The notes under the pieces were generated by a model. That model did no database searches and was not told where the DNA came from. It worked only from the letters and a program-made list of their open reading frames with translations. From NCBI RefSeq assembly GCF_023716925.1, contig NZ_JAMQQG010000019.1, positions 1-64,000 of the forward strand: a stretch of 64,000 nt of DNA, in the 5' to 3' direction. A program made the position numbers and the translations under genes. Origin of the DNA: Frankia sp. R82. GTDB taxonomy: Bacteria > Actinomycetota > Actinomycetes > Frankiales > Frankiaceae. Shown here piece after piece: positions 22,297-48,526 of this stretch (positions within the stretch are counted from its first letter, which is position 1; the number at the start of each line of letters is the position of its first letter).

Positions 22297-23565
22297 CTAG
22301 GACCGTGCCCACGGGGTAGGCGGCCTCTGGCCGCGGTGGCCCTGCCGTGCGTCCGGGTGGATCGCGCCGACGGCTGCGGTCTGCCTGGTCAGCGCCCGGT
22401 ACGGCAGCAGCGTGATGCTGGCCGTGCAGGCGAGCCCCGCGACGAGCAGCGCGGTCCTGACGCCGGCGAGCGCGGCGAGCCCGCCACCGGCGAGGATGAA
22501 CAGCGGCTGCACGGTCTTGGCGCTGATTCCCCAGGCGGTGCGTACGCGGGCCATGTAGGCGTCGGCGGTGACCTCCATCCGGTAGGTCGCGAATATCGGG
22601 TTGAACACCCCCGCGCAGATCAGCATCGCCGTGTCCGCCACCACGATGATGACCAGACCGGTCGGGCCATGGGGTGCGAGCGGGTACAGCAGCAGCCAGG
22701 GAGCGCGCGCCGCGCCGGCGACGAGCAGCACGCGCCGCTGCCCGAACCGGCGCGCGAGAGCGGGCGCGAGCCGGGCGCCGACGATCCCGGCGAGGCAAGG
22801 CAGGCCCAGGGACAGCCCGTAGGCATACGCGGGCAGCCGAAGTCCGTCGAGGATGAGGACCGCGAGCAGCGGGCCGGTCATGACCACGGGCCCACCGAAC
22901 AGCATCGCGTTGAGGAACAGGCGTCGCAGCCCGGGGTGGGCGAGAAGGTAGCGCCATCCCTGGCGGATGCCGGCGTCGGCGCCGCGGGCGGGTGGCGGCG
23001 GTTCGGGTGCGCGGATGCGCCGCACACCGGCGGCGGAGCCGAGGTAGGACGCGGCATCGAGCGCCATCGTTGCCGTAGCCCCGAAGCCGCCGATCAGCAG
23101 CCCGCCGACCGGCGGGCCGGCCGCACCCGAGGTCCAGTCGACGGTCTCGAACCAGCTGTTCGTCGCCAGACACCCGTCCGTGTCCGTCATCGCTTTCAGG
23201 TGCGCCCCGCTGGCGGCGGCGAAGGCGGTCGATGCGATCGAGGAGAGGGCACCGACCGCGACCAGGTGCCCGAAGGTGAGCAGATGCAGCGCGGCAGCCA
23301 CCGGCACGCTCGCGAGCGCGATGAACCGCACCAGATCCGCCGCGATCATGACGGGTCGTTTGCGTCGGTGTTCGATGCCGGCCCCCAGCGGGAGCAGAAC
23401 AGCCGCGGCGGTGAGCCCGGCCAGGCCGGACAGCATCGACACCTCGAACGCGGAGGCATGCAGGACGAGGATCGCGACGATCGGCAGCGACCCCGACCCG
23501 ACACCGCTGCCCGCCGCGCTGATGGTGTAGGCGACGAGGAGGTTGCGGCGATCACGATCCCGCAC
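22297..23565 (-). CDS. Major facilitator superfamily exporter
   Basis: The 422-residue protein has about 12 hydrophobic helices and the EntS/DUF894-type layout of MFS drug or siderophore exporters (LSGLAGLTAAAVLLPLGAG; EHRRKRPVMIAADLVRF is the cytoplasmic loop 2-3). It is convergent with the NYN gene and divergent from the FxLD-type methyltransferase at 23890. Export of the lanthipeptide made further downstream is possible, since that cluster has no transporter of its own, but this is inference. Confidence 0.82.
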   Translation of the reverse strand: MRDRDRRNLLVAYTISAAGSGVGSGSLPIVAILVLHASAFEVSMLSGLAGLTAAAVLLPLGAGIEHRRKRPVMIAADLVRFIALASVPVAAALHLLTFGHLVAVGALSSIASTAFAAASGAHLKAMTDTDGCLATNSWFETVDWTSGAAGPPVGGLLIGGFGATATMALDAASYLGSAAGVRRIRAPEPPPPARGADAGIRQGWRYLLAHPGLRRLFLNAMLFGGPVVMTGPLLAVLILDGLRLPAYAYGLSLGLPCLAGIVGARLAPALARRFGQRRVLLVAGAARAPWLLLYPLAPHGPTGLVIIVVADTAMLICAGVFNPIFATYRMEVTADAYMARVRTAWGISAKTVQPLFILAGGGLAALAGVRTALLVAGLACTASITLLPYRALTRQTAAVGAIHPDARQGHRGQRPPTPWARS

Positions 23566-23889: not shown

Positions 23890-25170
23890 GTGGATGTGGT
23901 TCAGGAGCAGACAGTAGAAATACCCGACCAGGAGCACCCGGAGGTGCTGCGTACGCGGCTGGTCGACGGCCTGATCTCGGGCGGCTGGATCAGGACGGCA
24001 GACGTCGAGGCGGCGTTCCGGACCGTGCCACGGCACCTGTTCGCGCCCGAGGCGTCGGTGAAGGCGGCGTACGCCGACGATGTCGTGCGCACGAAGTTCG
24101 ACTCCGACGGGACGGCGGTCAGTTCGGTGTCCGCGCCCTGGTTGCAGGCGACGATGATCGAACAGGCACGTCTGGCAGCCGGGATGCGCTGCCTGGAACT
24201 GGGCTCGGGTGGCTACAACGCGGCCCTACTCGCGGAACTCGTCGGCCCGACCGGTGAGGTGACCACCGTCGACATCGACCCGGACATCACCGACAGAGCC
24301 ACCCGCCTGCTCACCGCGGCGGGCTACGACCAGGTCCGGGTCCTGACCCGCGACGGCTGGTACGGCGCGGCCGAACACGCCCCGTTCGACGCGATCATCG
24401 TCACCGCGCAGGCCGTGGACCTCCCACCGGCCTGGGCCGACCAGCTCGTCGACGGCGGCCGGCTCATCGTCCCGCTGCGGCTACGCGGCCTCGGCCGCGG
24501 CGTCGCGTTCGAGCGGCACGGCAACCACCTCGTCAGCCGCGAGACGCAGATGTGCGGCTTCGTCCGCATGCAGGGCGCCGGCGCGCACCCGATGCGGCGC
24601 CTCGCGCTGCGCGGCGACGACATCGGCCTCCGGTTCGACGGCAACTACCCGGCGGAACCCGAGCTGTTCGACCGCATCCTCGACAGCCCCCGCGTCGACA
24701 TCTGGACCGGCGTACGGCTCGGGCCCAGGGTTCCGTTCGACACGCTCAAGCTCTGGCTCGCCACCATGTTCGACGGCTACTGCGGCATCGACGTCGCGAA
24801 GGACGCGGCCACGGAATCCCTCGCACCCGAAGGCCACCGCCCTCCCGGCGACGCGGTCGTCAACGGCGCCACCCTCGCCTACTTCACCTGCCCCAAGATC
24901 GCCGAAGCGCTGTACGAGTTCCGCGTCCACGCCTTCGGCCCCGACGCCACCACCCTCGCCGACGATCTCGCCCACCAGATCCGCATCTGGGACCGCGACC
25001 ACCGACACGGCCCCGACCCCCTCGTCACCGCCCACCCCGCCGGAACCCCAGACCGCGACCTGCCACCGGGCCGAACCCTCGACCGGCCCCACGCCCGCAT
25101 CACCATAACCTGGCCACACCCAGATGACCCGGACGCGACCTTCCACGGCTCCCGCCCGACGCCCAGCTAG
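23890..25170 (+). CDS. PIMT-like methyltransferase of the FxLD lanthipeptide type (orphan)
   Basis: The 426-residue protein starts at GTG 23890. Residues about 20-230 form a protein-L-isoaspartate methyltransferase domain (SSVSAPWLQATMIEQARLA, the SAM motif LELGSGGYNAALLAEL, TVDIDPDITDRATRLL). The C-terminal 190 residues are the extension typical of the FxLD-type enzymes (LKLWLATMFDGYCGIDVAKD, HQIRIWDRDHRHGPDPLVT). Family members methylate an aspartate of the modified lanthipeptide. No precursor with an FxLD motif lies next to it, so its substrate may be the peptide at 29215 or a distant one. Confidence 0.82.
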   Translation: MDVVQEQTVEIPDQEHPEVLRTRLVDGLISGGWIRTADVEAAFRTVPRHLFAPEASVKAAYADDVVRTKFDSDGTAVSSVSAPWLQATMIEQARLAAGMRCLELGSGGYNAALLAELVGPTGEVTTVDIDPDITDRATRLLTAAGYDQVRVLTRDGWYGAAEHAPFDAIIVTAQAVDLPPAWADQLVDGGRLIVPLRLRGLGRGVAFERHGNHLVSRETQMCGFVRMQGAGAHPMRRLALRGDDIGLRFDGNYPAEPELFDRILDSPRVDIWTGVRLGPRVPFDTLKLWLATMFDGYCGIDVAKDAATESLAPEGHRPPGDAVVNGATLAYFTCPKIAEALYEFRVHAFGPDATTLADDLAHQIRIWDRDHRHGPDPLVTAHPAGTPDRDLPPGRTLDRPHARITITWPHPDDPDATFHGSRPTPS

Positions 25171-25432
25171 AACTCGATCGTCGGGTGAGTTTCGGCAGGC
25201 CAGTCGGCCCCGCTTCGGTCAGTTGATCTATCCTCACCCGGGTCCGGAGTGGGGCCAACTCAGGTGATCGCGGTGGGGCCAGGCGACCTGACCGAAGACA
25301 GGAGGACACCCGCGCCGCCGCCGCGATTCTCCGTTCCGGTACGGTCTCACGATACGAAGAGATGCACCCTCCAACGACGAACAGATGGCCCGGTCAAACA
25401 CCATTCCCGCAGGTCAAACCAGGTGTGGCGTG

Positions 25433-25461
25433 CGAAGAAAACTCTCGGCTTGCGGGGAATG
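25433..25461 (+). promoter_or_regulatory. 29-bp element, copy 3
   Basis: CGAA and CTCG are spaced by 7 bases, then 7 bases and GGGAATG. It lies 138 bases upstream of XRE-TPR paralogue 3, which may therefore control itself. The remainder of the 430-base gap holds no gene that I can support. Confidence 0.65.
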
Positions 25462-25599
25462 ACACACTCCACCCCATCGGGCCATCATCATGGTCCATCA
25501 GCCTCGACGCGGGCAGCACCACCGACGACCGGAGTGACGTGCCCGCTTCGACGGGGCCGGCCGATGCCGATCCGCGAACGGGCTCGGAGGAGATGTGGC

Positions 25600-27111
25600 A
25601 TGAGCAGGGCGAGTCTGCGGGCCGACCAGGACGAGCTGCGGACGCGGATGCGCGCCGCCGGGATGAGCCACGACGAGATCGCCGTCGAGTTCGCCCGCCG
25701 CTACCACTTCCGTCCTCGCGCCGCCCACCGCCACGCCCACGGCTGGACCCAGGCGCAGGCCGCAGACCACATCAACGCCCACGCCGCCCGCGCCGGCCTC
25801 GACCCGGATGGCACCGCGCCCATGAGTGGCCCGAAACTGTCCGAAATCGAAAACTGGCCCCAGCCGAACAACCGCAGAAGGCCCACACCCCAGCTCCTCG
25901 CCCTGCTCGCCGAGGTCTACAACACCAGCATCCACAACCTCATCGATCTCGACGACCGCGAACAGCTACCCCCAGCTGATCTATTCCTCATCAACGCCGC
26001 ACGTAGGCGCCGTGCGGCGAGCCCGGAATGTCGATCACCAGCGGCCCCTGTTCTCCCGGATGGGGCAGGCCGGCCCCGTAGTGGCGAACGGATCGCCGTG
26101 TCTGGCCTACCAGCTGCACAGGCCGTCAGGCTGGCGGACGCTATGGGAACAGTCATGCACGACATCGACCGACGGAATTTCGTTGCTTCGACGGCCACCG
26201 CGCTCGCGTTCGAGAGGACCACCTCCCGGCACGTCGACCCGGCACTCGTCGGCTACTTCAGCGAGCAGTTGGAGGGTCACTACCGAGCGGACATGATGCT
26301 CGGTCCTCGCGAGCTGATCAGTACCGTCACTGCCCAGCACACGCTCATCAGCAACCTGGTGGCGACAGCCCGTGGGGAGACCCGGCTGGCTCTCCTGCGT
26401 GCCAGCGCGGCTTACGCCTCGCTGGTGGGCTGGCTTCATCAGGACGCCGGCGACCTTCCCAGTTCGTCCGTCTGGCGCGGTGTTGCCCTGGAGGCCGCAC
26501 AACGCTCTCAGGACCACCAGCTCGTCGCCTACTCACTGCTCAACCACGCGTCGGTCCGCACGGATCTTGCTGACGGCTTCGGCGCGCTCGACCTTTGCGG
26601 CGCGGTCCTGGCCGATGCCGGCCGGCTCAGCCCGAAGATGCGGGTGATGGCGCTCCAGCAGCAGGCCCACGGCGCGTCGCTCGTCGGAGATCGTGAGACC
26701 GTCGACTCTGTCCTGGACCAAGCGGCTCCGCTCGTCGAGAGTTGTGACGATGGCTTGCCATGGGGCAATGCCTGCCGTCGAACTCCGGGCTACGTGGAGG
26801 TTCAACGCGCCACCTGCTACGGACGTCTGGGACTAGCCAAGGCCGCTGCTGGCCTGTGGCAGCAGGTCCTTGTCACGACGCCTGCCCATGCCCGACGAGA
26901 CCGCGGCGTCTACCTCGCCCGGCAGGCCGTCGCATGTGTTCAGAGCGGCGACGTCGGGCGCGCGGTCGAGGCCGGGCGGCTCGCGGCGGACCTGGCGGTG
27001 GAAACTGGGTCTGTGCGAATTCTCCGTGAGCTCTCCGGCCTGCGGGAAGCCGCACAGCCCTGGAAAGGTACGGCCGCCGGCCGCGACCTCGACGAGATCT
27101 TCGTCCTCTGA
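25600..27111 (+). CDS. XRE-like regulator with TPR domain (paralogue 3 of 3)
   Basis: The 503-residue protein starts at ATG 25600 behind GGAGGAG; the frame upstream is open but unlike protein. The conserved N-terminal block is very close to paralogue 2 (RTRMRAAGMSHDEIAVEFAR, PKLSEIENWPQPNNRRRPTP). The C-terminal 330 residues are TPR-like (QVLVTTPAHARRDRGVYLAR, AVEAGRLAADLAVETGSVRI). It has the 29-bp element upstream and a pterin dehydratase gene 12 bases downstream. Among the three paralogues this one sits closest to the lanthipeptide genes and is the best candidate regulator. Confidence 0.84.
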   Translation: MSRASLRADQDELRTRMRAAGMSHDEIAVEFARRYHFRPRAAHRHAHGWTQAQAADHINAHAARAGLDPDGTAPMSGPKLSEIENWPQPNNRRRPTPQLLALLAEVYNTSIHNLIDLDDREQLPPADLFLINAARRRRAASPECRSPAAPVLPDGAGRPRSGERIAVSGLPAAQAVRLADAMGTVMHDIDRRNFVASTATALAFERTTSRHVDPALVGYFSEQLEGHYRADMMLGPRELISTVTAQHTLISNLVATARGETRLALLRASAAYASLVGWLHQDAGDLPSSSVWRGVALEAAQRSQDHQLVAYSLLNHASVRTDLADGFGALDLCGAVLADAGRLSPKMRVMALQQQAHGASLVGDRETVDSVLDQAAPLVESCDDGLPWGNACRRTPGYVEVQRATCYGRLGLAKAAAGLWQQVLVTTPAHARRDRGVYLARQAVACVQSGDVGRAVEAGRLAADLAVETGSVRILRELSGLREAAQPWKGTAAGRDLDEIFVL

Positions 27112-27123
27112 AGGAGACGTGAC

Positions 27124-27462
27124 GTGGCGGATGCGCCCGTGCCCCTGGCCGACGACGAGATCGAGGCCCGGCTACGCGAGCTACCCGGCTGGGCCCTGGC
27201 CGGCCAGGAGATCACCAAGACTTTCCGCATCCGCTATCACGGCGGAGTCGCTCTGATCGTGCACGTCGCCGACGTCGAGCGGCTGATCGGCCACCATGCG
27301 GACATTGACTTGCGTTGGGACACCATCCGCTTCGGGATCACCACCCACGACGCCGGGCACCGGATCACTGAGGCCGATTTCGATCTCGCGCGACGCATCG
27401 ACGCCATCGCCCTAGCCCACACCACGGGACCGGCCGCATCGTCGGTGGGACGTGGCGGCTGA
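27124..27462 (+). CDS. Pterin-4a-carbinolamine dehydratase (PCD/DCoH family)
   Basis: The 112-residue protein starts at GTG 27124 with AAGGAG upstream. It matches the small PCD family: LRELPGWALAGQEITKTF at the start, the active-site block IGHHADIDLRWDTIRFGITTH reduced to HHADID...TTHDAG, then ITEADFDLARRIDAIA. The enzyme removes water from 4a-hydroxy-tetrahydropterin. In the window it is the second pterin/folate gene that is paired with an XRE-TPR regulator. Confidence 0.88.
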   Translation: MADAPVPLADDEIEARLRELPGWALAGQEITKTFRIRYHGGVALIVHVADVERLIGHHADIDLRWDTIRFGITTHDAGHRITEADFDLARRIDAIALAHTTGPAASSVGRGG

Positions 27463-27753
27463 CGGAGCGATGACGACGCGGCAACCGCGTGGCCGGCTTG
27501 TTGGTTAGTTGCATGGATCTGGCCGGAGACCTGATCCGGGTCGGCACCATGTGCCAGACGCGCACCGCCGAGGCTGCGGGGCGCGACCGATGAAGGACGA
27601 GCCGGATCGACGCCGGCTCCTCCGATGAGGACCGATCTGGGGCCCCGCGGATAACTTGGCGGGTGAAGATTTCGACCCTTCTACCTGTCCGACAGGCCGA
27701 ACCGGAGCAGGTGCCGATCGCTATCTCCGCAGGTCAGTGGTCCTCTTGAGGCC

Positions 27754-27782
27754 CGAACGAAATCTTCCCATCGCGGGGAATG
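27754..27782 (+). promoter_or_regulatory. 29-bp element, copy 4
   Basis: CGAA-N7-TTCC-N7-GGGAATG lies 90 bases upstream of the methyltransferase that opens the lanthipeptide operon. Nothing else recognisable is in the 410-base gap. Confidence 0.72.
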
Positions 27783-27872
27783 TGTTGCTCCTTCGAGTGG
27801 GGCATTGTTGCGAGGCGTTCACTCCTGTCCGTGGACGATCATGAAGTGCCCAGCATGTGAAGGAGGAGCTTG

Positions 27873-29126
27873 GTGCCTACCCCAGCAGCCGACGCCATCC
27901 CTGATCAGGACGATGTTCGGCCGGAGGATGTCGCCCGGTTGAGTGAGCAGCTCGTGCGGGAACTGCGCGAGCTGAAGGCGATCGTGACACCCGAGGTCGA
28001 GCGGGCGGTGCGGGCGGTGCCGCGGCACCTGTTCGTCCCGGAAGTCCCGTTGGAGAAGGCGTACGCCGCCGAGCATCACTATGTGACGAAGAAGGACGAG
28101 CACGGGGTCAGCATCAGCTCGGTGTCCGCCGCGCGGGTCCAGGCGATGATGCTGGAGCAGGCCGGGGTGCGGCCGGGCATGCGGGTCCTGGAGATCGGGA
28201 GCAGCGGTTACAACGCGGCGCTGCTCGCCGAGCTGGTCGGCAAGGACGGCGAGGTCGTCTCGATCGACATCGATCCCGACGTCCTGGACCGGGCTCGCCA
28301 GCTACTGCCGGCCGCCGGATATGACGAGGTCATTCTCCTGCGGGCGGACGGCGAGTTCGGTGCGCCGCAGTACGCGCCCTTCGATCGGATCATCGTCACG
28401 GCCGGCGCCTGGGACATCCCGCCGGCGTGGGTCGACCAGCTGGCCCCTGGTGGCCGGATCGTCGTCCCGCTACGGATGCGGGGTCTGACCAGGAGCATCG
28501 CGTTCGACCTCGACGGCGACCGCCTCGTCGCCCGGGACTACCAGCTGTGTGGCTTCGTCCCGATGCAGGGTGTCGGGGAGAACCGCACGAGTCTGGTACT
28601 GCTGCACGGCGCCGAGGGCGAGGAGGTCGGCCTGCGCCTCGACGAGGGGCAGCAGGTGAACGCTCCCGCGCTGGCCCGAGCGTTGCATCAGCCTCGGGTG
28701 GAACGCTGGTCGGGCGTGACGGTCGGTGGCTTCGAGCCGTTCGACAACCTCGATCTGTGGCTGGCCACTGTCCTGGACGGCTTCGTCCTGCTGACGGCGA
28801 AGCCGCAGGCCCGGGAGCGCGGTCTGGTCGCGTCCGTCTCCCCGCTGGGCGTGGCGACGCTGGCCGACGACGACAGCTTCGCCTACCGCACGGTGCGACC
28901 AACCAGCGAGGAACGGACCCTATTCGAGTTCGGGGTCTACGGCCATGGCCCGAACGCTGATGCCCTCGCGGACCGGCTGGCCGAACAGATCCGCCTCTGG
29001 GACCGCGACTATCGCCAGGACCAAGCCCGCATCGAGGCCCATCCCCTCGGCACACCCGCCGAGGAGCTTCCCGCCGGTCGTCTGATCGACAAGCGGCACC
29101 GTCGGATCACGATCTCCTGGCCGTGA
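27873..29126 (+). CDS. FxLD-system methyltransferase (PIMT-like, LanS_A type)
   Basis: The 417-residue protein starts at GTG 27873 behind AAGGAGGAG. It has a PIMT-like domain with VLEIGSSGYNAALLAELVG and VSIDIDPDVLDRARQLLPAA, then the FxLD-specific C-terminal domain (LDLWLATVLDGFVLLTAKPQ, EQIRLWDRDYRQDQARIEA). Family members act after LanB/LanC and convert an aspartate to its methyl ester, leading to isoaspartate or a succinimide. The FxLD precursor lies 88 bases downstream, so this is the cognate enzyme. It is a clear paralogue of the protein at 23890. Confidence 0.9.
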   Translation: MPTPAADAIPDQDDVRPEDVARLSEQLVRELRELKAIVTPEVERAVRAVPRHLFVPEVPLEKAYAAEHHYVTKKDEHGVSISSVSAARVQAMMLEQAGVRPGMRVLEIGSSGYNAALLAELVGKDGEVVSIDIDPDVLDRARQLLPAAGYDEVILLRADGEFGAPQYAPFDRIIVTAGAWDIPPAWVDQLAPGGRIVVPLRMRGLTRSIAFDLDGDRLVARDYQLCGFVPMQGVGENRTSLVLLHGAEGEEVGLRLDEGQQVNAPALARALHQPRVERWSGVTVGGFEPFDNLDLWLATVLDGFVLLTAKPQARERGLVASVSPLGVATLADDDSFAYRTVRPTSEERTLFEFGVYGHGPNADALADRLAEQIRLWDRDYRQDQARIEAHPLGTPAEELPAGRLIDKRHRRITISWP

Positions 29127-29214
29127 CCGGAGTCCCTCCGCGCACCAGCAGGGACTCGCACCTGTCCAGCACCGCCCTCTCTATCCGCCATTGTCCTTCG
29201 GAAGGGAAACCACC

Positions 29215-29370
29215 ATGGAAACGACCCTCACCCCGGCGCCCGCCGACTTCGACCTGGACGTGGAGATCGCCACGCAGGGCGCGATCATTCCCGATCTCCT
29301 GAACAGCACCAGCGACAACTGCACGAGCACCTGCCAGAGCGCGTGCTCCAACAGCACCTGCGTCGCCTAG
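29215..29370 (+). CDS. FxLD-family lanthipeptide precursor peptide
   Basis: The peptide has 51 residues, with GGAAGGGA in front of ATG 29215. The leader (about residues 1-28) holds FDLDVEI at 12-18, the F-D-L-D box that names the family and is recognised by class I enzymes. The core has cysteines at 36, 40, 44 and 49 and many Ser/Thr (31-33, 37-39, 42, 45, 47-48), enough for up to four lanthionine rings. Asp34 is the only aspartate after Asp27, so it is the likely target of the methyltransferase. The leader cleavage site is not obvious and no protease gene is nearby. Confidence 0.92.
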   Translation: METTLTPAPADFDLDVEIATQGAIIPDLLNSTSDNCTSTCQSACSNSTCVA

Positions 29371-29387
29371 CCGACCGGCTCGGCCAC

Positions 29388-29420
29388 GTGCTGGAACCCG
29401 CGAGCCGCGGGTTCCAGCAC
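29388..29420 (+). terminator. Perfect 15-bp hairpin between precursor and lanB
   Basis: GTGCTGGAACCCGCG (29388-29402) is followed by the loop AGC and its exact reverse complement. There is no T-run, so it is probably a partial terminator or RNA-stabilising hairpin that gives more precursor than enzyme mRNA, as is common in lanthipeptide operons. Confidence 0.75.
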
Positions 29421-29451
29421 GACAGGAGATCACGAGGAGGAGGCGTCTCCG

Positions 29452-32400
29452 GTGTATCGGATGGTCGACACGGCCCTCGTCCGCGCCGCGTCCCACACCG
29501 CCGAGTCGGAGTCGATGACCTGGCCGGATCTCACGGGCGACTCGGCAGCGGACGTGGAACGCTGGCGGGACTGGATCAAGCAGGTGTGGTCCCAGGAGTC
29601 GATTGCCCAGGCAGTCGAGGCTGCCAGCGCGCTGTTCGCCGGCCGTGTCCAAACGGTCCTCGACGGGCGGGTACACGAGCCTCGGCCGGTGCGGCGGGTG
29701 ACGGCCACGCTGATCCGCTATCTGCTGCGGAGTCGGCATCGGGCGACCCCCTTCGGCCTGTTCGCCGGAGTCGCCCCAGTCCGTTTCGACCAGCGCCTCA
29801 CCGTGCGCTGGGGTGCGGAGCACCGAGTCGTGGCCAGAGTGGACGCGGCCTGGCTCGCGGACGTCGTCGCCAGCCTGGAGCGGTGCCCCGAGCTGGTGCG
29901 TCGCCTACCGGTCATGGTCGATCCGACCCACCTGGTCCGGGGCGGCAGACTGATCATCCCCTGTCAGCAGCCGGGCGCCGACGGAGCGGACGGGCCGGCA
30001 GAGGTCTCCCTGCGGTACACGCCTGCGGTGGCGAGAGTCCTAGACGCCGCGCGGGTTCCGGTCCGGGCCTCGGTGCTGGCCCAGGAGATCGCGAACGCCT
30101 ATCCCGGGGTAGCGGCGTCAATGGTCGATGGGCTTCTCGGTGAGCTGGTGGCACGTCGCGTTCTGTTGACTGGCCTACGCCCTCCAATGACGGCCACCGA
30201 TCCGCTCAGCCACGTCGCCGCCGCACTGTCCGAGGCCGATGCCACCTCGATCCCGGCCATCGCCGGCACCCTCACCACGCTGATCGCCATCCACGAGGTG
30301 CTCACCGAGCACAACCGCGCCGCCGCCCAGGAACAGCCGCCTCTCCGACGCGCCGCACACCGAAAGATGACCAGGCTGGCGACTGGAGAGACAGCGACCA
30401 CCGCTCTCGACCTGCGCCTCGACTGCGATCTCATGCTGCCCGTTCACGTGGCGAGGGAAGCAGAGAAGGCGCTGAGCGCGATCATGCGCCTCACTCCGTT
30501 TCCATTCGGCCCACCAGCATGGCGCGACTACCACGGCCGTTTCCTCGATCGATACGGGCCGGGCGCCGTGGTTCCGCTGCGAGACCTGGTCGACCCGGAT
30601 ATCGGCCTCGGGTTCCCCGCCGGCTACCGAGGCTCCACCATCGACCGTCCCCCGCCACGGTTGGCCCCGCGAGACGATCGGCTTCTCGCGCTCGCTCAGC
30701 GTGCCGCCCTCGACGGCGTTCGGGAGATCGAGCTTGACGACCGCTTGCTCGACGAGCTCCGCGAGCCCACCGCCGATGATCAGAAGGCCGCCTTGCCCGC
30801 GCACCTCGAACTGTGCTTCCACCTGCATGCCCCGACCACCGCGGCATTGGAACGCGGCAGCTATGACCTCGTCGTCAATGGGCTGTCCCTGGCCGCGGGG
30901 ACCCTGACGGGCCGATTCCTCGATCTGCTCGACCCGGCGGACCGCCGCCGCGTAGCCACGGCCTACGCAGGGCTGCCCACGCAAGACGCCGGAGCTGTCC
31001 GGGCGCAGGTCTCCTGCCCGCCGCTGCGGCTACGCACCGAGAACGTGAGCAGAGCCGGCGTTGTCCTGCCGCACGTGATCTCTCTGGGTGAGCACCGGAG
31101 CGAGAACGACACGATGCCGCTGGACGATCTGGCGATCAGCGCCGACGCCCGCCGCCTCTTCCTGATCTCCCGACGCGACGGGCGCAGGATCGAACCGGCG
31201 GTGTTTAACGCGGTGGAGCTCACCAACGTCGCGCATCCGTTGGCCCGGTTCCTGTGCGAGCTTCCGCGGGCCGGATCGGCCGTGCTCATCCCGTTCTCCT
31301 GGGGAGTCGCCGCGACGATGCCGTTCCTGCCCCGCGTCCGATATGGCCGGACCGTGCTCTCTTCGGCGTGCTGGCGGCTGACCACCGCCGACGTCGCACC
31401 GGCCTCTGCCTCCTGGGAAGTGTGGGAGGACAGCATGGCCCGTTGCCGGGCGCGTTACCGGCTTCCTGATGCCGTTGACCTGGGCGCGGCCGATCAGCGG
31501 CTACGTCTGGACCTCACGGAGAAGGCCCATCTCCAGCTGCTACGCGCCGACCTGGACCGATGGGGGCAGGTTACCCTGCACGAGGCGCCCGACTCCACCG
31601 CATGCGGCTGGTTCGACGGCCACGCCCACGAGATCACCGCGGCGTTCGCCGCCACCCAGAAACCCTCTCGTCCCGAGCCGTCGCCGACCCGCCGACCCGC
31701 CGTGATCTTACGGAGCCACGGCTACCTCCCCGGCGGCTCCGGCTGGGCCTACGTCAAGCTGTATGGCCACCCGGACCGCGCCACGACGATCCTCACCGCC
31801 TACCTGCCCGCGCTGTTCGACGCCTGGGACACGCCGCCCGCGATGTGGTTCCTCCGCTATCGCGATCCCGACCCGCACCTGAGGCTCCGCTTCCGGCTGA
31901 CCGAGCCCGGCGACTTCGCGCACGTGGCGCGACGAGTCGCCGCCTGGGCGGCGCATCTGCGAGAGGACGGGCTCGTCGCCCGCGTCCAGTGGGACGCCTA
32001 CCTTCCCGAGACCGGTCGTTATGGCACCGGACCGACTATGGTAGCGGCCGAGACCGTGTTCACCGCCGACTCTTCCGCCGCGCTCGCCCAGCTCCTGCAC
32101 CCCATCGGATCCACCAGGCCCGGTCAGGCCGCCGTCCCTGTGACCGTGGCCAGTCTCGTCGACCTGGCGATCTCCTTCACCGGGGAGCTCGACGAGGCGA
32201 TGCGCTGGTTGGGCCGCAGTGTGACGACCCGGACCGGTCCCACTCTGGACCGGTCGGTCCGGGACGAGACTCTGCGGCTCGCTGATCCACATAAGGACTT
32301 CGCACAGCTCCGCACCATCCCCGGTGGATCACAGATCGTCGACTCGTGGGCACGCCGACGCGAGGCACTATCCCACTACCGAGACCGGCTGCGCACCGGA

Positions 32401-32547
32401 GGCGGGCCGGACCCCAGCACGATCCTTCACTCGCTGCTCCACATGCACCACATCCGGGTGAACGGACTCGATGAGGCCGCCGAACAGGAATGCCGTCGGC
32501 TTGCCCGCGCCACGGCCCTCGCCTGGGCCGCCCGGAGCCGGGCATGA
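29452..32547 (+). CDS. Class I lanthipeptide dehydratase LanB
   Basis: The 1031-residue protein starts at GTG 29452 behind GAGGAGGAGG. The N-terminal glutamylation domain (to about residue 660) contains the signature RHRATPFGLFAGVAPVRF and, later, VVLPHVISLGEHRSEND. The C-terminal elimination domain (about 750-1020, SpaB_C type) opens LRSHGYLPGGSGWAYVKLYG and has RYRDPDPHLRLRFRLTEPG. LanB dehydrates Ser/Thr of the core using glutamyl-tRNA. Both domains are present, so it should be self-sufficient, although a second SpaB_C-type protein is encoded at 33767. The stop overlaps lanC by four bases. Confidence 0.92.
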   Translation: MYRMVDTALVRAASHTAESESMTWPDLTGDSAADVERWRDWIKQVWSQESIAQAVEAASALFAGRVQTVLDGRVHEPRPVRRVTATLIRYLLRSRHRATPFGLFAGVAPVRFDQRLTVRWGAEHRVVARVDAAWLADVVASLERCPELVRRLPVMVDPTHLVRGGRLIIPCQQPGADGADGPAEVSLRYTPAVARVLDAARVPVRASVLAQEIANAYPGVAASMVDGLLGELVARRVLLTGLRPPMTATDPLSHVAAALSEADATSIPAIAGTLTTLIAIHEVLTEHNRAAAQEQPPLRRAAHRKMTRLATGETATTALDLRLDCDLMLPVHVAREAEKALSAIMRLTPFPFGPPAWRDYHGRFLDRYGPGAVVPLRDLVDPDIGLGFPAGYRGSTIDRPPPRLAPRDDRLLALAQRAALDGVREIELDDRLLDELREPTADDQKAALPAHLELCFHLHAPTTAALERGSYDLVVNGLSLAAGTLTGRFLDLLDPADRRRVATAYAGLPTQDAGAVRAQVSCPPLRLRTENVSRAGVVLPHVISLGEHRSENDTMPLDDLAISADARRLFLISRRDGRRIEPAVFNAVELTNVAHPLARFLCELPRAGSAVLIPFSWGVAATMPFLPRVRYGRTVLSSACWRLTTADVAPASASWEVWEDSMARCRARYRLPDAVDLGAADQRLRLDLTEKAHLQLLRADLDRWGQVTLHEAPDSTACGWFDGHAHEITAAFAATQKPSRPEPSPTRRPAVILRSHGYLPGGSGWAYVKLYGHPDRATTILTAYLPALFDAWDTPPAMWFLRYRDPDPHLRLRFRLTEPGDFAHVARRVAAWAAHLREDGLVARVQWDAYLPETGRYGTGPTMVAAETVFTADSSAALAQLLHPIGSTRPGQAAVPVTVASLVDLAISFTGELDEAMRWLGRSVTTRTGPTLDRSVRDETLRLADPHKDFAQLRTIPGGSQIVDSWARRREALSHYRDRLRTGGGPDPSTILHSLLHMHHIRVNGLDEAAEQECRRLARATALAWAARSRA

Positions 32548-33794
32548 GCGTCGACGCCCGCGCCGACCTCGCTGATGCTGTCGCGGCCCGGCTGACCGTC
32601 CCCACCACGGTCGGCCCCAGCGCCGCGGAGCTCTCCCAGTCCCTGGCCCGGGGCGCGCCCGGCACCGCACTGCTGCACATCGAACGCGCCCGCGCCGGGC
32701 GCGGCGATTGGAGCACCGTCCACGCCTGGCTGGCCGCCGCCACCCGCACCCCGATCAACGCCGGGCCAGATGCCAGCCTGTATGTCGGTGCTCCGGCCGT
32801 CGCCTTCGCCGTCCACACCGCCGCCGCGAGGTCAGAGCGTTACCAGCGTGCCCTCACCACCCTGCACGCCACGGTCCGCCACCTCACGCGGGACCGACTC
32901 GACCGTGCCCACCGGCGCCTCGCCCGCGGCGACCCGCCCGCGTTCACCGAGTTCGACCTTCTCTATGGCCTGACCGGGCTCGGCGCCTACCACCTCCAGG
33001 TCGATCCTGACGGCGACGACCTCCGCCAGGTCCTCCGCTACCTCGTTCGCCTCACCAAGCCGATCCGCCGTCACGGCGACCAGTTCCCGGGCTGGTGGAC
33101 CGATCTGTCCCCCACCCGCCAGCGCTCGGCCGACTTCGCCGGCGGCCATGGCAACCTCGGCATGGCCCACGGCATCGCCGGCCCGCTGGCTGTGCTCGCC
33201 CTCGCTGCCCGCCGCGGAATCGTCGTGGACGGCCACCGAGACGCCATCGAACAGATCTGTTCCTGGTTCGACGCCTGGCGGCAGGACCCTGGACCGGGCC
33301 ACACCGGGCCATGGTGGCCGCAGTGGATCACTGACGGTGAGAGGCGGGCGGGGCAGATACGCCAGCTGGTACCGACCCGGCGCACCGCGTCCTGGTGCTA
33401 CGGAACGCCCGGGATCGCGCGGGCACAGCAGCTCGCCGCGATCGCCACCGGCGATCAGCCCCGCACGCTGGCCGCCGAACACGCCCTCGCCAGCTGCCTG
33501 GCCGAAGCTGTCCGGCCCGGCCGCGTCGTTGACGCCGGCCTCTGCCACGGCTGGGCGGGACTGATCCTGACCGCGCGCCGCGCCGCGGCCGACGCGACCA
33601 CCGGCACAGCTGGCCACCCGATCAGCGCCTTCCTTCCTCGGCTGACCGATGCCCTCATCCGGCACGTCCGCGCCGGCAGCGGCGAGGACGAGGGCCTCCT
33701 CGATGGTGACGCCGGCGTCGCCCTCGCCCTGCACACCGTCGACCTCAACGGATTTCCGTCATCCGGATGGGACACATGCCTCCTGATCGCCTGA
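32544..33794 (+). CDS. Lanthionine synthetase C-like cyclase LanC
   Basis: The 416-residue protein starts at ATG 32544, overlapping the lanB stop. The LanC marks are present: GHGNLGMAHGIAGPLAVL, the zinc ligand in SWCYGTPGIARAQ, and the second and third ligands in GLCHGWAGLILTARR. The enzyme adds cysteine thiols to dehydrated residues to close lanthionine rings. Length is usual for stand-alone LanC. Confidence 0.92.
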   Translation: MSVDARADLADAVAARLTVPTTVGPSAAELSQSLARGAPGTALLHIERARAGRGDWSTVHAWLAAATRTPINAGPDASLYVGAPAVAFAVHTAAARSERYQRALTTLHATVRHLTRDRLDRAHRRLARGDPPAFTEFDLLYGLTGLGAYHLQVDPDGDDLRQVLRYLVRLTKPIRRHGDQFPGWWTDLSPTRQRSADFAGGHGNLGMAHGIAGPLAVLALAARRGIVVDGHRDAIEQICSWFDAWRQDPGPGHTGPWWPQWITDGERRAGQIRQLVPTRRTASWCYGTPGIARAQQLAAIATGDQPRTLAAEHALASCLAEAVRPGRVVDAGLCHGWAGLILTARRAAADATTGTAGHPISAFLPRLTDALIRHVRAGSGEDEGLLDGDAGVALALHTVDLNGFPSSGWDTCLLIA

Positions 33795-34849
33795 TTGGCA
33801 CCCCGCCCGAGAGCCGGAATGTCGCGGCACGTGACGCTGAGACAGCGGTGCTGGCCGTCCTCGCTGGCACGCCGATCACCACCGCCGCAGCCCGCATCGG
33901 CCTGCCGGCCGCCCACCTCGCTGACGCCGTCGAGCTCTACCAGGCCGCAGGTCAGGCCGCGCTCGCGGCCCAGACCGCGCTGTCCGGCTGGTACCAGGTG
34001 CACGTCGCGTTCCCCGACCGGGCGACCGCCGAGACCGCGATGGCCTCGCAGGTCCGCCCACCAGTTCGCGACGCAGAGGCCGAGGGAACCATCGACTCCT
34101 GGTGGTTCATCCGCAAGACGCCCTTCTGGCGCCTGCGGTTCCAAACCACGAGGTCAGCGGACACCCAGGCGCTCGTCCGGCGCGTCCTCGACGACATGAC
34201 TGCGAAGAACCTGGTCACGCGATGGTGGCCGGGCATCTACGAGCCCGAGACTGCGGTGTTCGGCGGCACCGCCGCGATGGACATCGCCCACCAGCTCTTC
34301 CACGCCGACAGCAGCGTCGTCCTCGACTACCTGCACCGCTACGATGCGGCCACGTCGGCGATGAAGCTGATCGGCCGACGCGAGCTGTCCCTACTGCTGT
34401 GCAGTGCCCTGATGCGCGCCGCCGGCCAGGACTGGCATGAGCAGGGCGATATCTGGCACCGCGTGACCCAGATGCGTCCCCTCGACACCGGCCAAGACTC
34501 CGACCGGATAGCCGGCACGACGAGGAACGTGCGCCGCCTCCTCACCCTCGACACAGGAGCGGAATCGGATCTTTTGGCCGAGGACAAGCCACTGACGTTC
34601 GCCCGGCCGTGGTTCACCGCCTTCACGACCGCCGGCAGCCAGCTGGCCAGCGCCGTCCACGACGGCTCGCTGAGGCGCGGCATCCGCGACGTCCTCGCCC
34701 ACCATGTGATCTTCCACTGGAACCGTTTTGGACTGTCCGGCCCAGCCCAGGCCGTCCTCGCGCAAGCCGCCGCTGACGGCATCCTCGGATCACCTGTCCG
34801 CCCGGTCGAACCGCAGGCAGCGGCAGCGGACGATGTGGCCAGAACCTGA
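33767..34849 (+). CDS. Stand-alone SpaB_C-type (thiopeptide-type bacteriocin biosynthesis) protein
   Basis: The 360-residue protein starts at ATG 33767 or 33776, inside the end of lanC. After a short helical N-terminus comes LSGWYQVHVAFPDRATAETA, WWFIRKTPFWRLRFQTT and RWWPGIYEPETAVFGGTAAM, the pattern of the elimination/lyase domain of split LanB enzymes. The LanB here already carries such a domain, so this protein is either a second lyase, an accessory subunit, or an enzyme for another modification. It is translationally coupled to lanC. Confidence 0.85.
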   Translation: MGHMPPDRLIGTPPESRNVAARDAETAVLAVLAGTPITTAAARIGLPAAHLADAVELYQAAGQAALAAQTALSGWYQVHVAFPDRATAETAMASQVRPPVRDAEAEGTIDSWWFIRKTPFWRLRFQTTRSADTQALVRRVLDDMTAKNLVTRWWPGIYEPETAVFGGTAAMDIAHQLFHADSSVVLDYLHRYDAATSAMKLIGRRELSLLLCSALMRAAGQDWHEQGDIWHRVTQMRPLDTGQDSDRIAGTTRNVRRLLTLDTGAESDLLAEDKPLTFARPWFTAFTTAGSQLASAVHDGSLRRGIRDVLAHHVIFHWNRFGLSGPAQAVLAQAAADGILGSPVRPVEPQAAAADDVART

Positions 34850-35702
34850 CCAGCCAGCCGTCGTCCATCGGATGCGAGCCGCCCACACAAAGGCATGCAT
34901 CGCCCTCGACGTCGGGCCCGCACCCGACGCCGTCGACCACTGGGGCTGGCAAGGCAGAACCCTCGGACGACCCGTGTCCGCCGAGCATGGCGCCTGCTGG
35001 CTTCGCCTTGCCAGCTCACCGGCCGACGAGATCGTCACGACCTTCTGGGACGGAGCGGTCGAAGCGCAGCGGCAGCTCCCCCGCTCCCTGCCCCGCCCGC
35101 AACTCGTCGGCTGTCACGACTGGACCGCCGGCCGGTGGGCCTACCGCGCCGAGCTATACGATCTCGTATCCGGTCGCGTCCTCGCCCCTTCCGCGATCCT
35201 GACGACAGCGGCGGATCTTCCCGCGTCCTGGTGGGCTGCCCTACGCGAGGCGCTCGACGCCATCGCTGCCGTCCCGACGGACCGTCTGACGATCCATCGG
35301 AGCTATCTCTCCAGGGTCATGCTCCGCCACCTGGGCGCGCAGGCATTCGGCAGTGAGGTGACCGCCCCATGGACGACGGCCCACGGCGATCTTCACTTCG
35401 CGAACCTGGTCGGCCCTGACCTTCATCTGCTCGATTGGGAAGGCTGGGGCAGCGCCCCGGCCGGCTACGACGCCGCGACACTCCACGGCTACAGCCTGCT
35501 CGTACCCGCCACCGCCGCCCGCGTCCGCCACGAACTCGCCCACATCCTCGACACCCCAGCCGGCCATTACGCCGAACTCGCCGTGATCAGCGAAATCCTG
35601 GACAGCACCACACACGGCGAGAACCTCGCGCTGGCAGAGCCGCTACGCCGCCGCGCGGCTCTCCTCCTCAAAGACACAGCGGGCCCCCGCCCCCAGACAT
35701 AG
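34833..35702 (+). CDS. Aminoglycoside phosphotransferase-like kinase at the end of the lanthipeptide operon
   Basis: The 289-residue protein starts at ATG 34833, overlapping the SpaB_C-type gene. Its catalytic loop is intact, TAHGDLHFANLVGPDLHL, followed by the metal site LLDWEGWGSAPAGYDAATL. It should therefore be an active kinase, unlike the related protein at 15163. It could phosphorylate the peptide or a small molecule. Its place in the operon suggests a peptide-linked role, but no direct evidence exists in the sequence. Confidence 0.78.
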   Translation: MWPEPDQPAVVHRMRAAHTKACIALDVGPAPDAVDHWGWQGRTLGRPVSAEHGACWLRLASSPADEIVTTFWDGAVEAQRQLPRSLPRPQLVGCHDWTAGRWAYRAELYDLVSGRVLAPSAILTTAADLPASWWAALREALDAIAAVPTDRLTIHRSYLSRVMLRHLGAQAFGSEVTAPWTTAHGDLHFANLVGPDLHLLDWEGWGSAPAGYDAATLHGYSLLVPATAARVRHELAHILDTPAGHYAELAVISEILDSTTHGENLALAEPLRRRAALLLKDTAGPRPQT

Positions 35703-35942
35703 ACGATCCGCACGCCCGACGAGAGGACCCGCCGGTCAGTAGCCTCGGGCACTGGGCGGCCTTGGGCGCCGTCGACGGGCATAGCGGCACCGTTGATCCA
35801 GATGGCGCGGTCGCCCCCGAACCCAAGGTCCTCGGCATCGCTCGGATCAGGGGTTCCCTGCGCACCTGGACCGAAGTGAGCCGCACGGTGCACGCGCTCA
35901 CGCCGTGGGTCGCGCGGCCTTCGGTGCGCGATCTGAAAAACG

Positions 35943-36794
35943 CTACGGTGACGGCCAGTCTTCCGCTCGCAGCTGCGCACCGGCCCAGTCCGCCACGGTA
36001 CGGATGACCGATGCCTGCCAGATCTGGGTCTGGGGGTCGGCGTAGGCGGGGTCGTCGTGGACCGCGATGCCGTGCTGCGCCCCGTCCACCGCCACCAGGC
36101 GGACCTCACCTCCGAACCGGTCGACGGCGGCCCGCGAGCTGTCCACGGGGACGAAGGTGTCCTTCGTACCATGCACGATCAGCGTCGGAGCGGTCACAGC
36201 ACCGAGTTCGCGGTCCGGTCGCAGGTAGAAGACCTCGTTGAGCAGCGGGCGGCCGAGCAGGAAGGTCGGCGAGTGCTCCAGGTATCCGTCGTCCGTCAGA
36301 TGCCGTCCCGCGTCCTCGTCGATCTGGTCGTCGTGCCAGTAGGGCTTCTGGTCGATGAACCTGTTCTTGTAGTCCAGGAGTGGATTGAAAAGCACCAGGC
36401 TGCGGACCTGCTCGGGATGGCGGGCGGCGAACAGCGCGCTTATCCCGCCGCCGAAACTGGCGCCTACCAGAACCACCGTGTCCGTACCGATCGCTCCTGC
36501 GGCATGCGAGGCAGCGGCCAGGATGTCACCGAGGATCCCGGCGATCGTAAGGTCCTCCATCCGTCCCTGGCTCTCGCCGTGCGCTCGGAAGTCGAACCGG
36601 AGCGACGCGATTCCAGCCTCTGCCAGGCCGTGCGCGAGTCGGGTGAAGAAGCCCCCTTCCTCTCTCGTCACACCTCCGCCGTGCACCAGGACCGCGACCC
36701 CCAAGGGGCGGTCCGACGGCCTCAGCAGGCTCCCTGCCAGCAGCAGCCCGTCAGGACTGCGGAACGTCACGGCCTTTTCGAGATCTCGGGTCAT
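35943..36794 (-). CDS. Alpha/beta-hydrolase (serine hydrolase / dienelactone hydrolase-like)
   Basis: The 283-residue protein starts at ATG 36794 with AAGGAG upstream. The nucleophile elbow is VVLVGASFGGGISALFAA, the oxyanion region is VAVLVHGGGVTREEGGFF, the acid is near LIVHGTKDTFVPVDS and the catalytic histidine is in VDGAQHGIAVHDD. It is probably a carboxylesterase or acyl hydrolase of the cytoplasm. It is convergent with the lanthipeptide operon and probably not part of it. Confidence 0.85.
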   Translation of the reverse strand: MTRDLEKAVTFRSPDGLLLAGSLLRPSDRPLGVAVLVHGGGVTREEGGFFTRLAHGLAEAGIASLRFDFRAHGESQGRMEDLTIAGILGDILAAASHAAGAIGTDTVVLVGASFGGGISALFAARHPEQVRSLVLFNPLLDYKNRFIDQKPYWHDDQIDEDAGRHLTDDGYLEHSPTFLLGRPLLNEVFYLRPDRELGAVTAPTLIVHGTKDTFVPVDSSRAAVDRFGGEVRLVAVDGAQHGIAVHDDPAYADPQTQIWQASVIRTVADWAGAQLRAEDWPSP

Positions 36795-37302: not shown

Positions 37303-38343
37303 ATGATCGCATCCTCCCCACCTGTACCTGCGGTCAATCCCGCCGCGCGGCCCGCCAGCGACGAGGGTCTTACTCGCGCTGCTGAACCTGTGGTCTTCAC
37401 CGACGGGCACCACTTCGACCTCGCGGCGTCCTTGGACCTGGAGACGGTCGCCTCCGCGGCGACCGGTCCACTGTCGGTGATCCTTCAGGTGACGAAGCGG
37501 TGCAACTTCGACTGCTCGTTCTGCTCCGAGACCTCGCAGGAGCCCGATCCGACGCTGGCCGCGCTGGAGCGGATGCGCGACAACCTGGCTGGAGTACCGC
37601 GGGTGTTCCTCTCCGGCGGCGAGCCACTGCTACGCCGGGACATCGTCGACGTCGTCAACATGTTCGCCGGCACAGTGATCGGCCTGCCGACCAACGCGAC
37701 GCGTGGGCTCCAGCACGCACGTGACCTGGCCGGCAAGGTCGCGTTCGTCAACGTCGGCCTAGAGGGGCCGCGGGCCACGACGAACCGGGTCCGTGGCGAC
37801 TACGACAAGGTCATGGAAGGGGTGCGGGCGTTCCAGGCCGCGGGGCTGCCACTGTCGCTGTCGGCGGTCGTCTACCGCTCGACGCTGACGGCGCTGCCCT
37901 TCACCCTTCAGATCGCCGACGTGCTCGACGCCGGGAAACTCAAGCTGATCATGCCGCTGCGCAAGGGCAACGCGCTCGATCTCGCCGACCACGAGTTCCT
38001 CACCATCGAGGAGGCCACGGCGGCATTCGATCGCCTGGCTGGTCTGCGCACGGCGCACGACTGGCGGCCGGCGCTGCGGCTGACGGCCTGGACGGCGGAC
38101 ACCGAAGGCCACATGATCGTGGTCAGTCCGCGGGGGCTGGCGAGTGCCTGGCCGGTCTACGACGCCCCCGACCTGCTGGAACCGTTGGGCAGCCTGCTCG
38201 ACGAGCCGATCAGCCAGATCTGGGCGCGGTACCGGTTCAAACGCAACCACTACGCCAAATATTTGGGCCAGTCGATTCACACAGTCGGCCGCGCCGGACG
38301 GCCCTTGTCGCCGCGCCGTTCGTTGCGGATTGCGCATGCGTAA
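37303..38343 (+). CDS. Radical SAM protein
   Basis: The 346-residue protein starts at ATG 37303 with GAGAAGGA upstream. The cluster-binding CxxxCxxC is in VTKRCNFDCSFCSET, followed by the GGE motif in RVFLSGGEPLLRRDIVD and VGLEGPRATTNRVRG. There is no SPASM extension, but the C-terminal 60 residues are basic. The substrate is unknown. It overlaps the next gene and heads an operon with an unknown protein, a very small ORF, a P-loop kinase and a broken Nudix gene. Confidence 0.85.
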   Translation: MIASSPPVPAVNPAARPASDEGLTRAAEPVVFTDGHHFDLAASLDLETVASAATGPLSVILQVTKRCNFDCSFCSETSQEPDPTLAALERMRDNLAGVPRVFLSGGEPLLRRDIVDVVNMFAGTVIGLPTNATRGLQHARDLAGKVAFVNVGLEGPRATTNRVRGDYDKVMEGVRAFQAAGLPLSLSAVVYRSTLTALPFTLQIADVLDAGKLKLIMPLRKGNALDLADHEFLTIEEATAAFDRLAGLRTAHDWRPALRLTAWTADTEGHMIVVSPRGLASAWPVYDAPDLLEPLGSLLDEPISQIWARYRFKRNHYAKYLGQSIHTVGRAGRPLSPRRSLRIAHA

Positions 38344-44726: not shown

Positions 44727-45127
44727 GGGCCACGGGTGCGACGTAGGTCGCGAAGTTGGCCGAGCGCGGTCGCGAGTTCGTGGTTGAGCCGGGCGTTCTC
44801 GGTGGTGAGGCGGCTGATCCGGTTGCGGAGGGCACGGACGACGTGCTCGTGTGATTCGGCGGAAATGCGATGTCCGGCGGGCCGTGCAGACCGCGTGCTG
44901 CTCTGGTCACGGCCGGCCGCGATTCCGCGGAGCCGGGCGAGGAGAGCCTGCTGAGCTGGGTCGTAGAGGAAGGTGCGGGAGACATTGGCTTTGGCGGCGA
45001 CGGCCGCGACGCTGACAGGGTCGGCGGTGTGTTCGAGGTCGTCGAGGATGGCGTGGACGCGGGCGGTGCAGGCGAGGCTGCGTTGCTGGGCTGCGGCGGC
45101 GAGATGGTGGCTGTTGTCAGCAAGCAT
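44684..45127 (-). CDS. TnpC-like accessory protein of a Tn554-type module
   Basis: The 147-residue protein starts at ATG 45127, 11 bases inside the end of the tnpB-like gene. It has an HTH-like part (VSVAAVAAKANVSRTFLYD) and a C-terminal coiled coil (RALRNRISRLTTENARLNHE). Size, position and fold match the small third protein of Tn554-like transposons (DUF6262 type), which guides the two recombinases. The 3' end runs into the Nudix gene on the other strand. Confidence 0.72.
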   Translation of the reverse strand: MLADNSHHLAAAAQQRSLACTARVHAILDDLEHTADPVSVAAVAAKANVSRTFLYDPAQQALLARLRGIAAGRDQSSTRSARPAGHRISAESHEHVVRALRNRISRLTTENARLNHELATALGQLRDLRRTRGPQRSQPSTENGAPL

Positions 45128-47432: not shown

Positions 47433-48526
47433 CGGGCTGTCTCCGTGGTGTCCCAGAAGCCGACTCGGACGAGCTCGTCGGCCATGTCGTCAGCGTCTAC
47501 GTGCACGTAGGTGTCGGCGGTGGTCCGCGCCGAGCGGTGGGTAAGTAGTTCGGCAACCATCTCCAGTCGGACCCCGGCGCGCAGCAGCGCCGTGGCGTGG
47601 GTGTGGCGGAATAGGTGCGGGTGGAAGTCGACCCCGGTGCGGCAGCGGAGCCGTTTGACCAGGCTCATCACACCCCAGTAGGTCATCGGCGCCCCGACCG
47701 GTCCGTCCCACAGGTTCACGAACACGTAGTCCGACTCCAGCTCGCCGTACTCGGCGAACAGGTAGTCCACGTAGAGATCGCACAGGGAACGGCGGACCGG
47801 GATCTCTTTGGGCTCCCGGTTCTTCCCCCGCGCCCGGTTCACGTTGTCCTCTCGCGGCAGCAGGACGATCGACCGCCGATCAGTGTCGATGTCCTCGTGG
47901 CGCAGGCCCAGCGCCTGTCCTATCCGACAGCCGGTCTCGAACATCAGCGCCATCAGGAACCGGTCGCGCAGCCGCACGCAGCCGTCCAGAACAGTCTGCA
48001 CCTGTCCGTCGGTCAACGTCGCCGGACGACGTTTGACCGTCTTCAGCTTCGTCGGGCGAACCGCCGAGGTGCTCGGAGCGATACCGGCCAGGAAGCTGCG
48101 ATCCTCACCCCCGACCCGGCGGCGCACCACTACCAACTGGGCGGCGACCTCGACGCCGCGCCGGGCCAGAAACTCGTAGAACATGTAGACGCTGTCGAGC
48201 GCCCGGTTGACCGTCGTCGCCTCCCGGACCGGGAACACCGAATCTGCGGCCACCAATCTGCCCGCATCGACCGGCCGCCGCAGCCAGCCGGCGAACTGGT
48301 CAACGTGCTCCGCGGACGCGGCCGACAGTTCGACGTGGACAGCCGCAAGAAACCGCAGCCACAGCACCAGATCGTGCGCGCGGGCCCGGATCGTGTTCGG
48401 GGAGTACTCCCGGTCCGTGCACATCGCCAGGAAGTCATCCACCGGCTCGACCACGTGGCCGTCATCGCCGACGACCGTGTATGTCTCCCGCCGGGCACCG
48501 CACCCGACCACTCGCCGAACCCGCAC
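47429..48526 (-). CDS. TnpA-like tyrosine recombinase
   Basis: The 365-residue protein has the N-terminal SAM-like core-binding domain (EYSPNTIRARAHDLVLWLRF) and a full catalytic domain: GCRIGQALGLRHED, HPHLFRHTHATALLRAG and LLTHRSARTTADTYVHV, in which the LGH histidine is kept as LTH. Length equals Tn554 TnpA. It is the first gene of the minus-strand module; the start is one of several options near 48526. Confidence 0.85.
   Translation of the reverse strand: MRVRRVVGCGARRETYTVVGDDGHVVEPVDDFLAMCTDREYSPNTIRARAHDLVLWLRFLAAVHVELSAASAEHVDQFAGWLRRPVDAGRLVAADSVFPVREATTVNRALDSVYMFYEFLARRGVEVAAQLVVVRRRVGGEDRSFLAGIAPSTSAVRPTKLKTVKRRPATLTDGQVQTVLDGCVRLRDRFLMALMFETGCRIGQALGLRHEDIDTDRRSIVLLPREDNVNRARGKNREPKEIPVRRSLCDLYVDYLFAEYGELESDYVFVNLWDGPVGAPMTYWGVMSLVKRLRCRTGVDFHPHLFRHTHATALLRAGVRLEMVAELLTHRSARTTADTYVHVDADDMADELVRVGFWDTTETAR

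Follow-up and report, generated by a model that had tools for sequence, protein, structure and literature searches.

A 64,000-nt stretch of the 6.9 Mb genome of Frankia sp. R82 (NZ_JAMQQG010000019.1, called the window below) contains an operon for a class I lanthipeptide of the FxLD family, in which a free-standing SpaB_C protein is followed by a kinase with the fold of the aminoglycoside phosphotransferases (APH). Our preferred reading, which we hold at somewhat short of an even chance, is that the operon specifies a class I lanthipeptide (‘lanthimiditide’) pathway in which this accessory kinase phosphorylates the peptide, likely near residue Asp34 of the precursor. We favour a peptide substrate because the genes form one overlapping operon, the kinase falls in a clade linked to SpaB_C genes, its catalytic residues are intact, the precursors of kinase-bearing clusters share a core signature, and the kinase family recurs in a second peptide context. 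The kinase sub-clade and the core signature together make a possible new modification, a phosphate, directly testable at a named candidate residue.

Class I lanthipeptides with a dedicated methyltransferase are among the commonest peptide clusters of actinobacteria, and the window cluster is, by its family matches (precursor, LanB and LanC, and the TIGR04364 methyltransferase), an FxLD cluster of this known and very common kind. A preliminary description of this DNA had listed a methyltransferase, an FDLD-leader precursor, a full LanB, LanC, a SpaB_C protein and a kinase; all are present, in one operon with overlapping genes, and the methyltransferase, precursor and SpaB_C protein have family matches above the cut-offs:

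27870–29126, forward strand: methyltransferase of the protein isoaspartate methyltransferase (PIMT) type, FxLD system (TIGR04364, 559.2 bits, cut-off 320; PF01135, 147.6 bits)
29215–29370, forward strand: precursor of 51 amino acids, with an FDLD leader and a core containing STSDNC and four cysteines (TIGR04363, 44.7 bits, cut-off 30)
29387–29421, forward strand: perfect inverted repeat with 16-nt arms and a 3-nt loop, between the precursor and LanB
29452–32547, forward strand: full-length LanB dehydratase with N- and C-terminal domains (PF04738, 711 bits; PF14028, 162 bits; MibB 5ehk, 333 bits)
32490–33794, forward strand: LanC cyclase (PF05147, 142.8 bits) with WCYG and CHG motifs, presumably its zinc site
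33767–34849, forward strand: free SpaB_C protein (TIGR03891, 199.9 bits, cut-off 48.45)
34833–35702, forward strand: APH-fold kinase of 289 amino acids, its start overlapping the SpaB_C stop at 34849

The kinase start at 34833 was set from relatives, and an upstream TTG at 34728 was not adopted. The complete HGD/DWE motifs previously ascribed to this protein are borne out: HGDLHFAN and LDWEGW are both present, and H184, D186, H188, N191, D201 and E203 do not vary across the 62 relatives aligned. No Pfam or NCBIfam model matches the window kinase, including Pfam APH (PF01636), which a relative at locus L090 does match (28.4, cut-off 23.2), and a sequence search of solved structures gave chance globin matches only; the fold is taken from an AlphaFold model (predicted local distance difference test, pLDDT, 95.8; predicted template modelling score, pTM, 0.91), which is that of an APH. 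The closest solved fold is APH(4)-Ia (Z 17.5, root-mean-square deviation, rmsd, 3.6 over 252 residues, 13–15% identity), although the operon in which the window kinase lies is one of peptide maturation. The Ser/Thr kinase LxmK of the class V lanthipeptide lexapeptide also aligns (Z 14.9, rmsd 4.0 over 245 residues, 16–17% identity), and like LxmK the window kinase has an APH fold and a complete catalytic site within a lanthipeptide operon. It differs in belonging to a complete class I system, with no LanX or LanY in 27870–35702, where every gene but the kinase is assigned to another family. Because the catalytic residues are invariant and the model has the APH fold, the kinase is expected to be catalytically active as a phosphotransferase. 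A kinase-like protein of a lanthipeptide cluster may also be a cyclase without kinase activity, as RosX of class V is, but in RosX the residues for catalysis and Mg binding are missing (Xie 2025, PMC12291118), whereas here they are intact, and comparison with Pfam and NCBIfam revealed no LanD-type decarboxylase in the operon; we regard a RosX-like pseudo-kinase as very improbable and have set it aside.

Across the FxLD family, the kinase is, on present genome comparisons, a rarer but conserved accessory of a known cluster type. In a sample of 44 regions from the same bacterial family (the window, three others from its own genome and 40 from elsewhere; 33 with LanB), it stands directly behind SpaB_C in four of the 33 LanB-bearing clusters, namely the window, L048, L050 and L052, the frame in L052 stopping short after LDW. 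A more distant kinase, outside the clade described below, lies ~5 kb further on in L046, and in the Frankia sp. R82 genome the window kinase is the only strong match. A class-wide sample of 148 genomes, overlapping the first, holds SpaB_C proteins of the FxLD kind in 25 genomes (44 places) and the kinase family in 13 (25 places); by coordinates, three of the 44 SpaB_C places adjoin a kinase (G000, G003, G131). A scan of GTDB genomes gave 427 kinase relatives, of which the best 80 were used; in 14 of these loci the kinase is directly 3′ of SpaB_C (L103 and L048 are one contig), with the kinase start no more than ~35 bases from the SpaB_C stop in all 14 and the two genes overlapping or touching in 11. 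The preliminary description had asked whether other FxLD clusters keep both genes, and had taken the absence of both from most of them as a mark against it. The outcome is divided, in that the kinase is indeed absent from most, but SpaB_C is kept in 30 of the 33 LanB-bearing clusters.

The 17 kinases linked to FxLD clusters make up one side of a branch in an 85-row tree (Shimodaira–Hasegawa-like approximate likelihood ratio test, SH-aLRT, 97), with members in Frankiaceae, Streptomycetaceae, Nocardiopsidaceae, Streptosporangiaceae, Thermomonosporaceae, Pseudonocardiaceae and Promicromonosporaceae. A single gain of the kinase on the LanB tree was rejected: although the kinases are one clade, the clusters that bear them are not one group on either the LanB or the SpaB_C tree, each of which requires three changes. 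Since kinase clusters are scattered over both trees, we conclude from these phylogenies that the kinase has been lost or exchanged more than once. Relatives of the kinase also occur in 72 plasmid records, 67 of them from Streptomyces, and among the ten plasmid records listed one relative adjoins a SpaB_C gene of thiopeptide type.

Clusters with the kinase also differ from those without it in the precursor core. The comparison took in 14 precursors of kinase clusters and 26 of clusters or loci lacking the kinase (12 and 22 distinct cores, respectively, once duplicates were removed). The signature T-[ST]-D-[GN]-C-x-[SK]-T, its leading T judged by eye, is present in 14 of 14 and 0 of 26. Among distinct cores, Ser or Thr occurs three residues before Asp in 10 of 12 with the kinase against 0 of 22 without (5e-7), and directly before Asp in 12 of 12 against 5 of 22 by pattern (Fisher, 2.3e-5). 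TxDGC has been described in most lanthipeptide precursors (Lee 2023, PMC10787088). At kinase loci L085, L086 and L114 no precursor was found. In the window precursor, Asp34 is the sole Asp after Asp27. The preliminary description called it the only aspartate of the core, which depends on where the leader is cleaved and is likely rather than certain.

The kinase family occurs in two further settings. In 33 of the 66 kinase loci outside lanthipeptide clusters a short peptide frame is present, with an SDGGSTG-like motif in 25 and an SDGGGTG form in eight. Gene order in these loci (L089–L093, L096–L102, L104–L108, L111, L115, L117, L126–L128, L131, L133, L141, L145, L147, L151, L152, L154, L158 and L160) is peptide, JmjC_2 gene (PF08007), aldo-keto reductase (PF00248) and kinase, domains having been tested in L090 and assigned by similarity in the other loci. 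The SDGG[SG]TG peptide ends in an acidic tail. The arrangement suggests a separate kind of peptide cassette, of which a limited literature search found no published description. Its peptide and the cores of the kinase-type lanthipeptides have in common Ser-Asp-(Gly/Asn) followed by a later Thr. A wider proposal, doubtful at this stage, is that the kinase family is dedicated to peptides and phosphorylates Ser-Asp-(Gly/Asn) in two or more unrelated types, the FxLD and the SDGG peptides; in the FxLD type the phosphate would lie next to the isoaspartate (isoAsp) that the methyltransferase makes, and SpaB_C would have turned from a lyase into an Asp-processing enzyme. The same cassette bears on the idea that the kinase protects the producer by silencing its active peptide, in the way that APH enzymes act on aminoglycosides and AmiN acts on amicoumacin. 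Two antibiotic kinases, APH(4)-Ia and AmiN (6sui), are among the best folds, and the same Pfam and NCBIfam comparison revealed no immunity gene in the operon; but most sister clusters lack the kinase, the family also occurs in another peptide cassette, and the peptide has no bioactivity that we know of, so that self-protection appears unlikely.

In the third setting (L132, L134, L140, L144, L148, L149, L159), the kinase lies directly behind a protein, of 791 residues, with a TIGR04364 domain fused to other domains (339 bits, L144), and ahead of genes that are presumably glycosyltransferase-like and LmbE-like; NUDIX genes also lie near these loci. Such surroundings, together with the small-molecule kinases that are its nearest solved structures, would suit an enzyme with a small-molecule substrate that merely travels with the cluster. 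Against this stand 17 kinases from seven actinobacterial families, kept as one clade beside SpaB_C, and we consider a small-molecule substrate rather improbable.

Several observations nevertheless weigh against phosphorylation of the peptide. The small-molecule kinases closest in structure leave the fold silent on a peptide substrate, the 66 loci outside lanthipeptide clusters are the majority of the 80 relatives used, and no peptide was seen in the setting with the fused TIGR04364 methyltransferase. The core patterns were chosen post hoc, and related clusters are not independent; the tree provides only two to three independent kinase/core pairs, none contrary but too few for significance. If two cores that the pattern missed are counted, Ser or Thr directly precedes Asp in 7 of the 22 distinct cores without the kinase (p 1.4e-4), and a kinase-less cluster of the Frankia sp. 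R82 genome (L010) has TSDGC in its core, with Ser before Asp.

The SpaB_C protein, described beforehand as ‘extra’, is indeed there, but it is the rule and not the exception. Of the three LanB-bearing clusters that miss it, L056 and L057 end at a contig edge and only L060 is truly without. It is ordinary for the FxLD family in its presence and not ordinary in its residues. We aligned the C-terminal domains of 37 LanBs with 43 free SpaB_C proteins, placing NisB positions by way of printed alignments; R786, R826 and H961 of NisB we take to be elimination residues, R826 and H961 being essential. The equivalent of R826 is found in all 37 LanBs and in none of the 43 SpaB_C proteins; for H961 the counts are 35 LanBs and again no SpaB_C protein. 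R786, in contrast, has an equivalent in 24 of 37 LanBs and 43 of 43 SpaB_C proteins, and R784 in 25 LanBs and 42 SpaB_C proteins. None of the four is missing from the window LanB, whose SpaB_C partner has Val and Ile at the R826 and H961 equivalents. LanBs without the R784 and R786 equivalents occur at L010, L043, L044, L046, L053, L058, L059, L080, L083, L088 and L119, and the free SpaB_C proteins of those same loci keep R786. It is possible that such LanBs share or split one active site with their SpaB_C partners.

A sequence search of solved structures gave no matches for SpaB_C, and its fold is assigned from a model (pLDDT 85.5). That model resembles the elimination domains of MadB (Z 21.0), MibB (20.9) and NisB (19.9–20.1), and scores lower against the thiopeptide [4+2] cyclases TbtD, PbtD and TsrL (16.2–17.7). 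It thus has the same fold as the elimination domains and keeps R784/R786, but differs from them in the lost R826/H961 and in an added helical N-terminus of ~70 residues. The cyclases are of the same fold family and also stand alone; the likeness is one of fold, and the window operon differs in that no azole-forming gene was seen in it (Pfam and NCBIfam comparison). Because the R826 and H961 equivalents are absent from 43 of 43, we set aside a back-up role, in which the free SpaB_C would serve as a second glutamate lyase, as improbable. A part in Asp/isoAsp chemistry is likelier, given the lost elimination residues and the fusion of SpaB_C to the methyltransferase in three clusters (L011, L072, L073).

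These residues also bear on whether kinase and SpaB_C might together provide a further route of dehydration, based on phosphate as with LanK and a lyase in class V, in which the kinase would phosphorylate Ser/Thr and SpaB_C eliminate the phosphate. The two genes are adjacent and mostly overlapping, LxmK is among the structural matches of the kinase, and SpaB_C keeps R784/R786 and the elimination-domain fold. Most clusters, however, have SpaB_C without a kinase, R826/H961 are lost whether or not a kinase is present, the route would be superfluous beside the complete window LanB, and the Pfam and NCBIfam comparison showed nothing LanY-like in the operon; we judge it quite unlikely.

Class I clusters with extra elimination-domain proteins and PIMT proteins, including fusions, have been described, with the suggestion that the extra proteins may have another activity, and the mature form of the product studied was stated as not established (Walker 2020, PMC7268733). 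That suggestion becomes testable now that every free SpaB_C examined proves to lack elimination residues. OlvSA has been reported to act after LanB and LanC, producing an aspartimide and then isoAsp (aspartimide review, PMC13001092). The window cluster resembles the PIMT-bearing class I lanthipeptides of OlvA/OlvSA type in its precursor motif, LanB, LanC, methyltransferase and an Asp before Gly/Asn, and differs by the added APH-fold kinase and by STSDNC in its core. By term look-up, ‘kinase’ appears in the available part of PMC7268733 solely where other lanthipeptide classes are discussed, and is absent from the text of PMC13001092 and PMC10787088; a literature search of partial coverage, including one by core letters, turned up no FxLD cluster reported to have a kinase.

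By analogy with known families, LanB would glutamylate Ser/Thr residues of the precursor and eliminate the glutamate, LanC would form the thioether rings, and the methyltransferase would then methylate Asp34 to give aspartimide and isoAsp. We suggest that SpaB_C assists the methyltransferase around Asp34, either catalytically or by binding the substrate, and that the kinase may phosphorylate a peptide hydroxyl spared from dehydration, most likely that of Ser33 beside Asp34. The outcome would be a phosphorylated product or intermediate.

Hairpins placed between precursor and LanB genes act as attenuators in lanthipeptide operons. The inverted repeat at 29387–29421, within a segment (29365–29460) whose RNA fold has a z score of −5.96, is likely such an attenuator and would set the ratio of precursor to enzymes. 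A scan of 27400–36100 for sigma-70-like promoters found none. The cluster may extend upstream, as NsdA-family regulators like the one listed here recur near other FxLD clusters:

23890–25170, forward strand: second FxLD-type methyltransferase (TIGR04364, 483.7 bits)
25249–27111, forward strand: NsdA-family regulator (NF053720, 164.5 bits), which may regulate the cluster, with relatives near many FxLD clusters
27124–27462, forward strand: small protein, which we take to be pterin dehydratase-like, adjoining the regulator in several other FxLD loci

TIGR04364 methyltransferases are found in 28 of 35 genomes of the bacterial family, with five over the cut-off in the Frankia sp. R82 genome. The one at 23890–25170 probably marks a neighbouring locus and not a part of the operon, because its best matches (79–83% identity) are orphan copies in L067, L068 and L071 without a LanB nearby; no precursor for it was recognised among conserved short frames. 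Elsewhere, L042 has at 11765–13293 an FxLD methyltransferase with a precursor (TDDNCGTTCQSAC), and no LanB or LanC is present within the 19 kb read.

As previously claimed, neither a protease nor an exporter gene is present in 27870–35702, according to open reading frames and the Pfam/NCBIfam comparison. The major facilitator superfamily (MFS) gene at 22297–23565, on the opposite strand to the cluster, had been named as the nearest candidate exporter. It can be retained only as a weak candidate, since its close relatives travel mainly with orphan FxLD methyltransferases (L067, L068), though one lies near a LanB cluster (L049). Outside the cluster, the window also encodes radical SAM proteins at 37303–38343 and 58506–60731, the second with a weak B12-binding match, and two adjacent genes of the phage integrase family on the minus strand (45117–48526), a sign of a mobile element.

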